Shown here: in pieces, positions 48,242-52,502 of the stretch | Layout: every line of letters begins with the position of its first letter | How positions within the stretch are numbered: position 1 is the first letter of the stretch | DNA from: Paludibacteraceae bacterium | GTDB lineage: Bacteria; Bacteroidota; Bacteroidia; Bacteroidales; Paludibacteraceae | DNA length: 64,000 nucleotides | Assembly: GCA_024693065.1 (NCBI GenBank) | Contig: JAILLP010000006.1 | Coordinates: forward strand, 124,001 to 188,000 | Direction: 5' to 3' | Made by a program: the position numbers and the translations under genes | Notes under the pieces: model-generated | The model's input: only the letters and a program-made list of their open reading frames with translations | Databases searched by the model: none | What the model was told of the DNA's origin: nothing

Positions 48242-49114
48242 TTAAAGCACATTCAATACTTGTTCCTTTATTTGCTCAAGCTCATCCTTCATCTTCACCA
48301 CGATTTTCTGCATTTCGCTATGGTTGGATTTGGAGCCTAACGTGTTGATCTCTCTTCCGATCTCCTGGGCGATGAATCCTAGCTTCTTGCCGCAGTTCCC
48401 TTCTGCATCCATTGTCTCCTCGAAGTACTTCAGGTGTTGGGCTAGACGGTTCTTTTCCTCGTTCACGTCTAGTTTCTCGATGTAGTAGATGAGTTCCTGC
48501 TCGAAGCGGTTCTTGTCGTAATTCACATCCTGAAGGGAGGTGAGATTGTCCAAGATGCGCTCTTTCACCTTCTCGATGCGTTCCTTCTCGTATGGGTCTA
48601 TTTCCTTTAGCAGACGTTTGATGTTCGCAATCTTCTCCTCGAAGACGCGGCGCAGGGAGGCTCCTTCCTTCGTGCGGAACTCCACCAGGGAGTCCAACGC
48701 GTCCGAAAAGGCATCGTATACCATGTTCCACTCCATCTCGTCTAGTTCTTGCGATTCCGTCTTCATCGCCTCCGGAAGGCGAAGCAGCACGGAAAACCAA
48801 TCCTCTGGAAGTGGAATGTCTAAATCGTGGGATATCTGTTTTATTTGTTTGCTATATGCTTGTATCACAGGCGCATTCAACTGTGAGGAACTCTCTGTCC
48901 CCAAATTCTCTAGAAATATGCCGAACTCCACCTTGCCTCTCTCCAGGCGCTGGCTGACCAGATTTCGTAGTTCCAAATCTTTTTCCCGATAGATGCTTGG
49001 TACACGGGAGGATAAATCTAATTGTTTGCCATTCAGCGATTTAATTTCAATCGTAATTTTCTTGGTTCCAACGGTGCAAGTTGACTTGCCGAACCCTGTC
49101 ATTGATAATACCAT
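48242..49114 (-). CDS. yicC: YicC-family endoribonuclease
   Basis: The 290-residue protein has the YicC_N start 'LSMTGFGKSTC' and 'EIKSLNGKQLDLSSRVP', and the C-terminal DUF1732 block 'KKLGFIAQEIGREINTLGSKSN', here quoted only in part: 'LGFIAQEIGREINTLGSK'. E. coli YicC is an endoribonuclease that promotes sRNA turnover. The linkage yicC-gmk is widely conserved and supports the call. TATATTTG at 49145-49152 is a -7 box without a good -33 partner. Confidence 0.93.
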   Translation of the reverse strand: MVLSMTGFGKSTCTVGTKKITIEIKSLNGKQLDLSSRVPSIYREKDLELRNLVSQRLERGKVEFGIFLENLGTESSSQLNAPVIQAYSKQIKQISHDLDIPLPEDWFSVLLRLPEAMKTESQELDEMEWNMVYDAFSDALDSLVEFRTKEGASLRRVFEEKIANIKRLLKEIDPYEKERIEKVKERILDNLTSLQDVNYDKNRFEQELIYYIEKLDVNEEKNRLAQHLKYFEETMDAEGNCGKKLGFIAQEIGREINTLGSKSNHSEMQKIVVKMKDELEQIKEQVLNVL

Positions 49115-50032: not shown

Positions 50033-50175
50033 AAATCACGACGCGGAACATATGGATTTATTGTATGCAGCAAGGCATCGCCCAAGTCGCCAAAGAGATG
50101 AAACAGAACAAGATGCCAGTGGAGGTCATCATGGAGGTGACACACCTGACGAAGGAGGAGATTGATAATCTGTGA
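50033..50175 (+). pseudogene. Deletion remnant of an Rpn-like PD-(D/E)XK nuclease gene
   Basis: Bases 50035-50062 match the segment at 51018-51046 of the intact gene (ATCACGACGCGGAACAT..GGATTTATT). The match then jumps to the last 36 codons, from 'MQQGIAQVAKEMKQ' to 'TKEEIDNL', ending at TGA 50175. The middle of the C-terminal module is therefore deleted. The remaining 36-codon frame from ATG 50065 differs from the intact tail by one residue (Asn for Ser). The following hairpin is conserved with the one after the tandem copy. Confidence 0.85.
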
Positions 50176-50308: not shown

Positions 50309-50372
50309 TGTCGTCCCTTCGATTCACAGGGGTTCACACCCCTGCCTGTGCTGTTACGCCCTTTCAGGGCTG
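50309..50372. repeat. 64-base double-hairpin repeat, copy A
   Basis: The element starts TGTCGTCCCTTCGATTCACAGG, given here as TGTCGTCCCTTCGATTCAC plus AGG. It contains a hairpin centred on GGGGTTCACACCCC and ends with the hairpin GCCCTTTCAGGGC. Copy B at 52421-52484 has sequence changes that keep both stems. The remainder of the gap 50176-50516 holds the terminator and the promoter listed separately. Confidence 0.7.
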
Positions 50373-50422
50373 AGAAGTTAATCCACCCTCAATCAAACAT
50401 GTATAATTTACATTTCTTAATG

Positions 50423-50516: not shown

Positions 50517-51383
50517 ATGGGTAAGTATATTGATCTGAAGAGCGACTTCGGATTTAAGTTCTGCATGCAGGACGAAACGATTATGAAATCTTTCCTGAAC
50601 GCTATCCTCGACGGCGACTGCGAGAAGATTACGAGTGTGAAATTCGAGAACGTGGAGACACCCCGTTACGCGCACGAGGGGCGTGGTGTGATCTTCGACC
50701 TCCTCTGCACGACGGAGACGGGCGACCATATCCTGATCGAGATGCAGAACAGCACGCAACGGTTCTTCAAGACCCGTTCCAGTTTCTACGTCTACAACCT
50801 GATGCGGCGGAAGTTCAAGAAGGGCTTCCAGTGGTCGGAGATGCGTGAGGACATCTCCCGCATCATGGGGATCTTCATCGTGGGGCGTCCCGGCATGGGC
50901 CTGACCAAGGTGCTGACCCGCACGGCAGAGTGCGACTTGGACACGGGCAAAGAATTTTGGGACAGGATGCGAAAATATTTTGTATCTTTGCCTCATTTCG
51001 AGTTTGATAGGAAAGATATCACGACGCGGAACATTTGGATTTATTTCTTCAAAAACCTAGGCAATATGGAATTTATAGACCCATCTGTATATGAGCGGGC
51101 TGACGAGGGACTTCGGCAGCTCATCAAGCGCGCCGAGGTGGGAGCCCTCAGCGAGAAGGAGTATGACCAGTATGAGGCCAGCATGAAGCTCCTGGCCGAC
51201 GAGATCGACATGGAGAAGCAAGGCTACGAGCGTGGCATGGCGGACGGCATGCAGAAGGGCATTGCCCAAGGTATGCAGCAGGGTATCGCCCAAGTCGCCA
51301 AAGAGATGAAACAGAGCAAGATGCCTGTGGAGGTCATCATGGAGGTGACCCACTTGACGAAGGAGGAGATTGATAATCTGTGA
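50517..51383 (+). CDS. Rpn-family / PDDEXK_2 nuclease-type protein, intact copy
   Basis: The ATG at 50517 gives 288 residues; a longer frame from 50424 starts inside the promoter. The family opening 'DLKSDFGFKFCM' is present. The PD-(D/E)XK core has Asp61 in 'VIFDLLC' and Glu75-Met-Gln77 in 'ILIEMQNS', the D..ExQ form usual in this group. Relatives (annotated as recombination-promoting nuclease or putative transposase) are DNA nucleases; E. coli Rpn proteins act in phage defence. The C-terminal module starts at Met184 ('MEFIDPSVYERADEGL') and ends in GMxxG repeats and 'VTHLTKEEIDNL'. This module is copied three more times nearby. No terminator follows directly. Confidence 0.88.
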   Translation: MGKYIDLKSDFGFKFCMQDETIMKSFLNAILDGDCEKITSVKFENVETPRYAHEGRGVIFDLLCTTETGDHILIEMQNSTQRFFKTRSSFYVYNLMRRKFKKGFQWSEMREDISRIMGIFIVGRPGMGLTKVLTRTAECDLDTGKEFWDRMRKYFVSLPHFEFDRKDITTRNIWIYFFKNLGNMEFIDPSVYERADEGLRQLIKRAEVGALSEKEYDQYEASMKLLADEIDMEKQGYERGMADGMQKGIAQGMQQGIAQVAKEMKQSKMPVEVIMEVTHLTKEEIDNL

Positions 51384-51740
51384 TTAGCCTGATGCAATAT
51401 GGAATTTATAGACCCATCTGTATATGAGCGGGCTGACGAGGGACTTCGGCAGCTCATCAAGCGCGCCGAGGTGGGAGCCCTCAGCGAGAAGGAGTATGAC
51501 CAGTACGAGGCTAGCATGAAGCTCCTGGCCGACGAGATCGACATGGAGAAGCAAGGCTACGAGCGTGGCATGGCAGACGGCATGCAGAAGGGCATTGCCC
51601 AAGGTATGCAACAAGGTATGCAACAAGGTATGCAGCAGGGTATCGCCCAAGTCGCCAAAGAGATGAAACAGAGCAAGATGCCTGTGGAGGTCATCATGGA
51701 GGTGACCCACTTGACGAAGGAGGAGATTGATAATCTGTGA
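51061..51740. repeat. Tandem duplication of the nuclease C-terminal module (period 333 bases)
   Basis: The unit 51061-51383 is repeated at 51394-51740. Both start GCAATATGGAATTTATAG. The second unit has three base substitutions (all silent third-codon changes: TAT/TAC, GCC/GCT, GCG/GCA) and two extra 12-base GGTATGCAACAA units. The near identity indicates a recent event or ongoing conversion. Confidence 0.92.
51399..51740 (+). CDS. Free-standing C-terminal module of the Rpn-like protein (tandem copy)
   Basis: The frame begins with the ATG equivalent to Met184 of the intact protein and runs 113 residues to the same stop. It contains the acidic helical part ('YERADEGLRQLIKRAEV') and an expanded GMQQ repeat: three GMQQ units where the intact gene has one. 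No nuclease residues are present. In E. coli, rpn genes encode internally initiated C-terminal short proteins (RpnS) that inhibit the full-length nuclease. This ORF has the right layout for such a product, but that function is inferred, and it could simply be debris. A strong terminator follows. Confidence 0.6.
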   Translation: MEFIDPSVYERADEGLRQLIKRAEVGALSEKEYDQYEASMKLLADEIDMEKQGYERGMADGMQKGIAQGMQQGMQQGMQQGIAQVAKEMKQSKMPVEVIMEVTHLTKEEIDNL

Positions 51741-51757
51741 CCATCCGATCTGATATG

Positions 51758-51793
51758 AAAAAAGCAGCGAATATGATTGTTCGCTGCTTTTTT
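51758..51793 (+). terminator. Intrinsic terminator after the tandem copy
   Basis: A6-GCAGCGAA (51758-51771) pairs with TTCGCTGC-T6 (51780-51793) around TATGATTG. It is symmetrical and may also end the convergent small-ORF transcript from 52147. Confidence 0.9.
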
Positions 51794-51812
51794 CGTTTTA
51801 GTAAAATGGTCA

Positions 51813-52025
51813 TTACATCCTTTTCAGGCTTTCGTCGTACTGAATACGCTCCTCTTCTGAGAGATTAGAGATTTTAGCCCTTTCAATTAATGCCAGCATG
51901 CCTTCGTCGGCGACATCAAGGATTTCCTGTGGAATCTCGTCCAGATCCTGCAAGTAATTGAACAAAAACAACCAGGCTTCCTGTTTTGTCAGCTTTTTAC
52001 CTTTGATTAAATCTATTGGATTCAT
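51813..52025 (-). CDS. Diverged free-standing Rpn-like C-terminal module, 70 residues
   Basis: The ORF starts at ATG 52025, which overlaps the TGA of the 41-residue ORF (ATGA). After a basic N-terminus ('DLIKGKKLTKQ') it aligns with the module of the nuclease. 'EAWLFLFNYLQDLDEIP' corresponds to 'NIWIYFFKNLGNMEFID', 'ADEGMLALIERAKISNLSEE' to 'ADEGLRQLIKRAEVGALSEK', and 'IQYDESLKRM' to 'DQYEASMKLL'. It ends where the GMxxG repeats would begin. It lacks all nuclease residues and is too diverged to be recent debris. A regulatory or inhibitory partner of the nuclease is a reasonable inference. Confidence 0.65.
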   Translation of the reverse strand: MNPIDLIKGKKLTKQEAWLFLFNYLQDLDEIPQEILDVADEGMLALIERAKISNLSEEERIQYDESLKRM

Positions 52026-52147
52026 AGTCTGACGTTTAGGTTGGATGATGGTTGTTGGGTTGGACCATTGATTTCGAACCGCCGTCCAAGCTGTTCGTTT
52101 TTGTTAAGGACTTGCAGCAGTTTGCTGTTTTTTGATTGTTTGTTCAT
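52022..52147 (-). CDS. 41-residue ORF coupled to the 70-residue module
   Basis: The ATG at 52147 directly follows a copy of the 20-base leader motif (R1). The product begins 'MNKQSKNSKLLQVLNKNEQ', is basic and Asn/Gln-rich, and ends 'NLNVRL'. Its TGA overlaps the ATG of the 70-residue ORF by four bases, which suggests translational coupling. I do not recognise it. It may be a leader peptide whose translation controls the next ORF. Confidence 0.5.
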   Translation of the reverse strand: MNKQSKNSKLLQVLNKNEQLGRRFEINGPTQQPSSNLNVRL

Positions 52148-52167
52148 GCGTATGTATTTTTTGAACA
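52148..52167 (-). repeat. Leader motif R1, directly before the 41-residue ORF
   Basis: The plus strand reads GCGTATGTA then TTTTT then TGAACA. It is the same orientation as R3 (52311-52330) and inverted relative to R2 (52188-52206). In the minus-strand RNA, R2 can pair with R1 (9 bp plus 6 bp around a mismatched centre), which would cover the bases just before the ATG. Confidence 0.7.
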
Positions 52168-52168
52168 T

Positions 52169-52247
52169 AAAAAAGGCACGGAAGTGTTGTTCAAGTTTAC
52201 ATACGCTAAAACTTTGCGGGTGTTTCCACTACCGCACACTTCGTGCC
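52169..52247 (-). ncRNA. Three-way-junction leader structure with terminator tract
   Basis: In the minus-strand RNA, GGCACGAAGTGT (52247-52236) pairs with ACACTTC-C-GTGCC (52187-52175) with one bulge, followed by T6 (52174-52169). Inside are two hairpins: GCGG/GTG with CAC/CCGC around a GAAA loop (52235-52216), and AAGTTT/AAACTT (52214-52093 arm pair at 52209-52214 and 52193-52198). R2 occupies part of the second hairpin, so the junction and R2 pairing with R1 or R3 cannot fully coexist. This looks like an attenuator or regulatory leader. I know of no named family that matches. Confidence 0.6.
52188..52206 (+). repeat. Leader motif R2 (inverted copy)
   Basis: The plus strand reads TGTTCA-AGTT-TACATACGC, the reverse complement of R1 and R3 apart from the centre. 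As RNA it can pair with R3 (about 11 plus 6 bp) or with R1 (9 plus 6 bp), but not with both. Confidence 0.7.
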
Positions 52248-52278
52248 GATATCTCTATCAGTATGTATAAAATGGCAC

Positions 52279-52302
52279 AAAAAAGCCGATCGAAATCGGC
52301 CT
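52279..52302 (-). terminator. First intrinsic terminator of the small-ORF leader
   Basis: On the minus strand GCCGAT (52300-52295) pairs with ATCGGC (52290-52285) around a TTCG loop, followed by T6 (52284-52279). It lies about 30 bases after the predicted start, so most transcripts may stop at about 50 bases unless it is bypassed. Confidence 0.7.
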
Positions 52303-52310
52303 AATGTACC

Positions 52311-52330
52311 GCGTATGTAAATTTTGAACA
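52311..52330 (-). repeat. Leader motif R3, at the predicted transcription start
   Basis: The plus strand reads GCGTATGTA-AATT-TTGAACA, the same orientation as R1. It overlaps the predicted transcription start of the leader (about 52327), so it would be at the extreme 5' end of the RNA. It could also act as a DNA operator. Confidence 0.65.
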
Positions 52331-52333
52331 CTG

Positions 52334-52364
52334 CAAAATTAAAGAAATATTTTAATGCTGCAAA
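52334..52364 (-). promoter_or_regulatory. Consensus promoter of the small-ORF leader
   Basis: TAATTTTG (minus, 52334-52341) and TTTG (52361-52364) are separated by exactly 19 bases, a full TTTG-N19-TAnnTTTG match. Transcription would run through R3, the first terminator, the three-way junction, R1 and the two small ORFs. Confidence 0.8.
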
Positions 52365-52420
52365 ATCTGAAGATGGACAGGTATTAAATCTCCCCTTGTT
52401 CTTTTGAATCGTCGATAATT

Positions 52421-52484
52421 TGTCGTCCCTTCGATTCACAGGAGGTCATACACCTGCCTGGGTTATTACGTCCTTTCAGGGCTG
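52421..52484. repeat. 64-base double-hairpin repeat, copy B
   Basis: It is the same element as 50309-50372. The first hairpin changes to CAGG-AGGT..ACCT-G-CCTG and the second to GTCCT/AGGGC with a G-U pair, so both stems survive. Copies A and B are in the same orientation and lie at the two edges of the nuclease block. Confidence 0.7.
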
Positions 52485-52502
52485 GAATTTAAATTTCCCA
52501 AC

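Follow-up and report, generated by a model that had tools for sequence, protein, structure and literature searches.

A chromosomal C4-type antisense RNA predicted to control a small Rpn-related protein in Bacteroidales

Introduction

What does a leader with mutually exclusive pairings do in front of two overlapping small reading frames, and which protein does it serve? The question arises on the minus strand of a 64,000-nucleotide stretch of DNA from a rumen bacterium of the Paludibacteraceae (the window, meaning the whole stretch that was analysed), for which an initial annotation had described an attenuator-like leader with a segment, R2, complementary to both an upstream segment, R3, and a downstream segment, R1. 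We argue that the leader is probably a chromosomal antisense switch of the C4 type (c4-2, of the P1/IsrK kind) that controls translation of an operon made up of a leader ORF and the gene of a 70-aa Rpn-related protein. Computation shows that the RNA belongs to this family, that the complementarity is specific to the locus, that the stem covaries, that a hairpin recurs and that the 70-aa protein is under selection.

Results

The leader contains an RNA of the c4-2 family

The elements of the locus are collected in Table 1. The promoter motif, the place of R3 just after it, the hairpin with its T6 run and the abutment of R1 on the ATG of the 41-residue ORF were all recovered as first described, as was the ATGA overlap between the end of this ORF (52022) and the start of the 70-residue ORF (52025). 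The spacing TTTG-N19-TAnnTTTG agrees with the Bacteroidetes promoter consensus; in 38 of 55 rows (three near-identical copies of the window locus included) an exact TAnnTTTG precedes C4 by at most 170 nt, mostly directly before R3. R1 sits between two in-frame ATGs, 52168 and 52147, and the same ATG-R1-ATG order is present in the related loci L004 and L075.

Table 1. Features of the locus, in window coordinates.
Feature	Position	Strand	Basis
Bacteroidetes-type promoter motif: TTTG (52364-52361), 19 nt, TAATTTTG (52341-52334)	52334-52364	-	read in sequence; promoter use presumed
R3, GTTCAAAATTTACATACGC, upstream target of the antisense arm (P1 a1/b1 position)	52311-52329	-	R2:R3 -22.8 kcal/mol
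GC hairpin then T6, intrinsic-terminator-like, between R3 and C4	52279-52301	-	hairpin -8.8 kcal/mol
C4-type antisense RNA, c4-2 (RF02944), 77 nt	52172-52248	-	Rfam cmscan 47.9 bits, cut-off 41
R2, antisense arm within C4, complement of R1 and R3	52189-52206	-	duplex energies, genome pattern search
T6 run closing the C4 stem; possible C4 3' end	52169-52174	-	sequence
R1, GTTCAAAAAATACATACGC, downstream target at the leader ORF start (P1 a2/b2 position)	52148-52166	-	R2:R1 -22.0 kcal/mol
Leader ORF, 48 aa (ATG 52168) or 41 aa (ATG 52147), at icd/orf45 position	52022-52168	-	ORF list
70-aa protein similar to the helical Rpn (PDDEXK_2) segment that precedes the repeats	51813-52025	-	profile and alignment
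Rpn-family protein, 288 aa, possible partner	50517-51383	+	PF12784 E 8e-36, 124.3 bits, scanned from upstream TTG 50424
Free copy of the last 105 Rpn residues with two extra GMQQ repeats, RpnS-like	51399-51740	+	alignment

The central part of the leader scores above the Rfam cut-off as a c4-2 RNA, a member of the C4 antisense RNA clan CL00128. The RNA belongs to the known C4/c4-2 family and the RNA family itself is not new. The initial annotation had known no riboswitch or T-box family with this layout; a reading that no known family has it is not supported. The c4-2 family reportedly goes back to a 2017 survey. The three-way junction that had been drawn at this place holds as a structured RNA (52248-52172) whose T6 run reaches to 52169; as a drawing it is only approximate for the window copy, because the additional small hairpin of the Rfam consensus is replaced here by a single-stranded arm. 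The window C4 is best drawn as a long stem, a GAAA-loop hairpin and an extended unpaired arm that holds R2. For the 190-nt leader the folding energy is -54 kcal/mol (z = -4.28), and none of 200 shuffles was equally good.

A metabolite-sensing riboswitch or a T-box could likewise show alternative pairings and a terminator-like hairpin within a structured leader. We consider this explanation hardly credible: no riboswitch or T-box model matched at E up to 10 in an Rfam scan of 51700-52500, the C4 match largely refutes it, and what varies in the leader is the antisense arm, in step with its targets. A metabolite sensor was rejected on the scan result, and we saw no sign of a metabolite being sensed. 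The isrK model (RF01394) gave no match at E up to 10 in the same interval.

The antisense arm fits the flanks of its own locus

Pairing of the antisense arm with its flanks was assessed in 40 loci, namely the 42 read minus the window copies L007 and L008, by comparing the duplex energy of each arm with its own and with swapped flanks. In the window, R2:R1 reaches -22.0 kcal/mol, compared with -7.8 ± 2.8 for R2 with the downstream regions of the 39 other loci, and R2:R3 reaches -22.8 kcal/mol, compared with -12.7 ± 3.2 for the upstream regions; the window's own flank ranks first downstream and second upstream. The pattern TTCAAN{3,10}CATACGC has seven matches in the whole genome (two for the reversed control), and only three of the seven contain TACATACGC: R3, R1 and the complement of R2. 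The double complementarity of R2 was thus borne out by energies and by pattern search alike.

The preference is shared across the set. Upstream duplexes average -20.1 with own and -15.3 with swapped flanks, downstream duplexes -15.2 and -10.1; out of 20,000 permutations, not one attained the own mean on either side. Restricting the comparison to the 11 loci of the host family gives the same picture (own versus swapped -25.4 versus -17.2 and -16.9 versus -10.3; again no permutation attains the own mean). The own flank is among the top three at 22/40 loci downstream and 13/40 upstream, ranks that are blurred by the fixed rule used to cut the arm and by the partly shared sequence of the loci of one genus, g42; own-flank preference is a property of the locus set and not of each single locus. 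Poor downstream partners (rank 10 or worse) were found for L011, L013, L015, L018, L020, L037, L039 and L040, and L020, L037 and L039 lie in tandem C4 copies.

The C4 stem covaries as well. Among eight family loci, 16 of the 19 stem pairs are altered on both sides; none of 500 shuffles matched this for four of five measures and one did for the fifth, and the counts were much lower when one strand was slid by 1-3 columns. One stem pair is broken in 6/8 sequences, and L006 is misaligned by one column in this alignment, as judged by eye. Covariation across homologues, the test that the initial annotation had set for itself, was passed at two levels, in the arm-flank fit of the 40 loci and in the stem of the eight.

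A terminator-like hairpin recurs between R3 and C4

Outside g42, 25 loci were compared for the hairpin (L001-L006, L009-L013, L023, L075 and L143-L154, leaving out the copies L007, L008, L141 and L142 of the window locus). A hairpin followed by a U-rich run lies between R3 and C4 in 18 of them and is absent in seven (L002, L005, L010, L149, L152, L153 and L154). The hairpins of L012, L145 and L150 were missed by the automatic scan and added by eye, an automatic match in L005 lay upstream of R3 and was not counted, and the weak hairpins of L023 and L151 (-3.1 and -2.9 kcal/mol) were omitted, which left 16 loci for testing. In the 16, an outer stem encloses the hairpin and U-run (in the window, 52310-52305 pairs with 52279-52274), and own stems beat swapped ones, with 4/20,000 permutations attaining the own mean. 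The start of the terminator arm can also form a helix with the 3' end of R3, and this helix likewise fits its own locus better than swapped partners (129/20,000 permutations).

This last helix is what one would expect if transcription attenuation were the main output, that is, if C4 paired with nascent R3, prevented an antiterminator helix and so closed the terminator; an analogue is the negative feedback by P4 CI RNA on seqA, as described in PMC4825925. Folding with R3 free or blocked also gave a clear switch in five of the 16 loci (L003, L004, L075, L148 and L150), in which the terminator probability rises from 0.01-0.54 when R3 is free to 0.93-1.00 when it is blocked; for each of the five, 10-22 of 300 shuffled leaders were as low in the free value. 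In the window, however, the terminator probability is 0.96 with R3 free or blocked alike and the antiterminator helix is only CGGU/GCCG, blocking R3 lowers the terminator probability in L013, L145 and L146, and the mean over the 16 loci when free (0.69; 0.89 when blocked) differs little from that of shuffled leaders (0.77). We therefore regard attenuation as the main output as unlikely, and a general antiterminator switch was not established, given the five loci that show one and its lack in the window. Taken together, the hairpin and folding results make a short R3 RNA plausible and attenuation by C4 possible in some relatives, and leave it unsupported in the window copy; to this extent the word attenuator, first applied to the window leader, names only a possibility.

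Comparison with P1 C4 and IsrK suggests a translational switch

The layout of the window follows that of the operon c4-icd-ant1 of phage P1 (C4, RF01695 and RF03163). The P1 record lists the promoters P2c4 and P1c4, then a1 at 48255, b1 at 48269, the C4 RNA at 48343-48419 (77 nt), a2 at 48423, b2 at 48452, icd at 48470-48691 and ant1 from 48688, a 4-nt overlap. The order is the same in both, both RNAs have 77 nt and both gene pairs overlap by 4 nt; R3 corresponds to a1/b1, R2 to the antisense arm and R1 to a2/b2. In P1, Rfam finds C4 at 68.8 bits and c4-a1b1 at 51 bits, and isrK below its cut-off (35.1 versus 50) from the a1 side to a U-run. Like the window, the P1 sequence folds into a hairpin, a U-run and an outer stem between b1 and C4, as a single sequence without statistics. 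Unlike P1, the window has no icd or ant homologue, and no repressor operator is known there. A covariance model that we built from eight host-family loci (model R1, distinct from the motif R1) does not find P1 C4. According to the P1 record, PMC12197685 and PMC8198154, C4 of P1 represses icd/ant.

A second precedent is IsrK/orf45/anrP of the Salmonella prophage Gifsy-1. According to PMC4825925, a short terminated IsrK RNA is made there, the read-through mRNA is translationally silent, a 45-residue leader ORF, orf45, is coupled to the antirepressor gene anrP, and the short IsrK RNA activates the read-through mRNA by pairing in trans; a processed downstream RNA, STnc1160, is reported and compared with P4 CI RNA. 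The window resembles this system in a predicted short unit that ends at a terminator, in predicted read-through to a second gene by way of a coupled leader ORF, and in mutually exclusive segments; the terminator-like hairpin with T6 lies between the upstream segment and the read-through part, and termination is predicted. It differs in that the pairing partner of IsrK lies inside orf45 and the cargo is an antirepressor, and in that the window has no isrK model match. As in C4-type systems, a small ORF at the downstream target (here of 41 or 48 aa) overlaps the next gene; the ORFs at the window locus gave no match to a phage antirepressor, the controlled gene of such systems, which is present in L004, L148 and L075. 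Compared by the RNA alone, the window agrees with c4-2 (RF02944) in sequence and structure above the cut-off and in an arm with upstream and downstream targets; its Rpn-related cargo and the terminator-like hairpin between upstream target and C4 may set it apart.

Based on these likenesses, we propose that one promoter would give an RNA with R3 as its 5' end. Part of the transcripts would end at the hairpin and T6 run, yielding a short R3 RNA, and read-through transcripts would carry C4, R1 and both ORFs. C4 would be released from the transcript and its R2 would pair with R1, so that initiation at the leader ORF is blocked by default, and the ATGA overlap would pass this block on to the 70-aa ORF by translational coupling. 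R3 would compete for R2 and thereby free R1, turning the operon on. That mutually exclusive R2-R1 and R2-R3 pairings could mask or free the start region, as first suggested, gains support in this comparison, being like the logic of IsrK/orf45/anrP and of P1 C4. We infer by this analogy that an RNA would act in trans on translation in the window. When the whole leader is folded computationally, R3 pairs with R2 in cis, which would leave the operon ON at rest, contrary to the default-off scheme; this fold does not settle the resting state, because R3 on intact C4 is a pseudoknot, which the program cannot draw.

The putatively controlled protein resembles Rpn

The 48-aa form of the leader ORF has no Pfam match at E up to 10. 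The first 22 residues of the 41-aa form weakly match phrog_4615, a phage family without assigned function (E 0.011). The 70-aa protein matches PF12784 at E 0.0012 and 19 bits, below the gathering cut-off of 27.4, aligns with the neighbouring 288-residue Rpn at about residues 166-224 and has 33-41% identity to Rpn segments of the genus. Its predicted structure is helical (mean pLDDT 85); a Foldseek search with this model gave no meaningful match (best E 4.6), the protein had no match in phage or plasmid records, and its peptide pattern had none in viral contigs.

Full-length matches to the 70-aa protein exist in 4 of 16 genomes of the genus, three identical and one, in genome G155, at 77%; the remaining matches in the genus are partial, many of them inside longer Rpn reading frames. 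Between the window and G155 genes, changes fall 15/9/41 on the three codon positions (dN 0.16, dS not computable), which indicates that the protein is under selection. In the three species with the C4 unit, the leader has 0/218 variable columns, the leader ORF 1/125 and the 70-aa ORF 0/209; the corresponding figures are 35/786 (4.5%) for the glycosyltransferase gene, 3/144 for the stretch from this gene to the promoter and 10/330, plus 24 gap columns, for the free Rpn copy. Constraint or recent recombinational spread would equally produce such invariance of the module. Outside the window, the protein occurs in two near-identical copies of the locus and as one homologue that lacks a C4 unit, so the link to this cargo counts as one independent case.

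At the G155 locus (L046:951-1725, apparently on the same contig as L057), the 70-aa homologue lies beside a divergent phage-type regulator (phrog_8, E 4.3e-6). Pieces of rpn surround it, one with an in-frame stop, and no C4 unit was found at L046. One small protein may here have come under two phage-like control modules, the C4 unit and the G155 regulator.

The C4 unit and small ORFs might instead be functionless left-overs of a decaying prophage immunity region. The closest leaders precede phage antirepressors, and no antirepressor is left at the window locus (its ORFs have no antirepressor match in Pfam or PHROG), as this explanation would have it. Against it stand the invariant leader and 70-aa ORF beside a variable neighbouring gene, a contrast that recent recombinational spread could also explain, the purifying pattern relative to the 77% homologue, the retained complementarity of R1, R2 and R3, and the nine neighbouring proteins, which are housekeeping and polysaccharide genes with no phage structural or integrase gene among them. 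We judge decay quite improbable.

By Pfam, the neighbours include guanylate kinase, YicC, a TsaD-family protein, an acyltransferase-type hexapeptide repeat protein, EpsG and glycosyltransferases; one 361-aa neighbour has no Pfam match. Against PHROGs, the nine gave no structural, lysis or integrase protein, and the Rpn protein matched a phage 'transposase' family. Rpn had no match among PDB sequences, and its AlphaFold model (mean pLDDT 53) was not used. The same Rpn C-terminus recurs a third time, in shorter form, as a 36-aa ORF at 50065-50175 (+). Copies of CCAGCCCTGAAAGGACG flank the islet of rpn and C4 on the minus strand at 52469-52485 and 50357-50373 (0 and 2 mismatches; 0.11 expected by chance) and may mark the borders of a stretch that was duplicated or is mobile.

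In E. coli, RpnS, made within rpn genes or as separate copies, blocks the toxic RpnL, and repeat number sets the specificity between the two, according to a preprint (PMC10327210). The 70-aa protein resembles RpnS as described there in being small and free-standing, related to the Rpn C-terminus and encoded beside a PD-(D/E)XK rpn gene; it differs in that its match lies N-terminal to the four-residue repeats. The better fit to RpnS is the copy at 51399-51740. An RpnS antitoxin was rejected as the identity of the 70-aa ORF, which ends short of these repeats and carries no repeat tail. The free RpnS-like copy might not inhibit the neighbouring Rpn, because a changed repeat number breaks RpnS-RpnL inhibition in PMC10327210. 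We infer that the putatively C4-controlled 70-aa protein may act on the neighbouring Rpn or on the free copy.

Most c4-2 genomes of the phylum sample belong to one genus, where the units mostly precede another small protein

The window genome holds a single c4-2 copy. Within the host family, c4-2 was found in 13 of 300 sampled genomes (10 above the cut-off), and in a sample of the phylum in 11 of 395 (10 above the cut-off), nine of the 11 belonging to g42 with 2-6 copies per genome. Model R1, under strict filters that lose weak matches, matched 12/358 family genomes and 10/393 order genomes; the window scores 75.8 bits with it, a near-identical copy having been among the model members. Near-identical loci occur in Bacteroidales bacterium UBA1181 and Paludibacteraceae bacterium RGIG6625 (sheep rumen), and L007, L008, L141 and L142 are copies of the window locus. 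Three relatives have a phage antirepressor as their next gene: L004 and L148 with Bro-N and KilAC, and L075, in an IMG/VR contig, with AntA. A protein upstream of L004 that looked nuclease-like by eye was dropped, having no Pfam match at E up to 0.01.

The c4-2 units of g42 (L014-L042 except L023) mostly stand ahead of a similar ORF of about 77 aa (MSTNTLSKETE... NELAEILNPYL), which follows 24 of the 29 g42 loci read and has no Pfam match in the one tested. In two g42 genomes, c4-2 units form tandem pairs about 120-180 bases apart (L020/L037 and L021/L039). The flanking genes of seven g42 loci are ordinary chromosomal ones, as judged by eye. These cassettes may amount to a set of small proteins, dispersed over the genome and each locked by an RNA.

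Small ORFs under an antisense RNA, recurring with such regularity ahead of the ~77-aa ORF and in such ordinary surroundings, bring to mind a toxin-antitoxin-like cassette in which the ORFs would be a toxic peptide, C4 its RNA antitoxin and the rpn neighbours incidental. The resemblance of the 70-aa protein to Rpn and to no known toxin argues against this, as does the G155 homologue, which has a divergent regulator and no C4 unit next to it, and we hold such a cassette to be rather improbable at the window locus.

Possible meaning of a C4 unit beside rpn

Rpn is a nuclease family linked to phage defence in E. coli. Should the Rpn link hold, this would be a phage immunity RNA recruited for the control of a defence locus. 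One could imagine that the chromosome took over a phage immunity switch to trigger a nuclease-based defence locus: C4 would silence the Rpn-related modulator, a shift between C4 and R3 RNA, for instance when a phage with a matching C4 unit infects or is induced, would free it and Rpn activity would be altered, and the g42 cassettes would be the wider form with antisense codes of their own. We regard this scenario as speculative and decidedly unlikely as it stands; the viral searches count against it, with no IMG/VR contig carrying the exact R3-plus-R1 pattern and no convincing C4 among the 64 IMG/VR stretches with the R2 pattern. Model R1 gave one weak match in these stretches (15.5 bits, E 0.63), and the window leader had no match in phage records. 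A pattern of GTTCAAAA, a gap and TATGTTCAAAA occurs in 83 viral stretches (L058-L140); Rfam found nothing in 17 of these, and model R1, applied to 80 (without L138-L140), found one match, L075.

The C4 and IsrK literature cited here, PMC12197685, PMC8198154 and PMC4825925 included, concerns phages of enteric bacteria. The same layout of target, terminator-like hairpin, antisense RNA, second target and coupled ORFs recurs in Bacteroidota. Within full-text literature RF02944 was named only in the Rfam 15 paper, no paper was found on c4-2 RNA in Bacteroid- taxa, and a small look through titles (C4 RNA, icd, antirepressor; PMC2864571) gave none on C4-type control beside rpn. As far as we have seen, the Rpn-related cargo, its setting kept in three species, the recurring hairpin and outer stem in Bacteroidales and the dispersed g42 cassettes appear to be new. 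The many R1/R2/R3 codes offer material for testing how antisense specificity tracks its targets.

In a further locus, L010, the c4-2 unit is followed by a 74-aa ORF with a weak match to the restriction endonuclease R.HinP1I (PF11463, E 0.0025, below the cut-off), possibly another nuclease-derived cargo.
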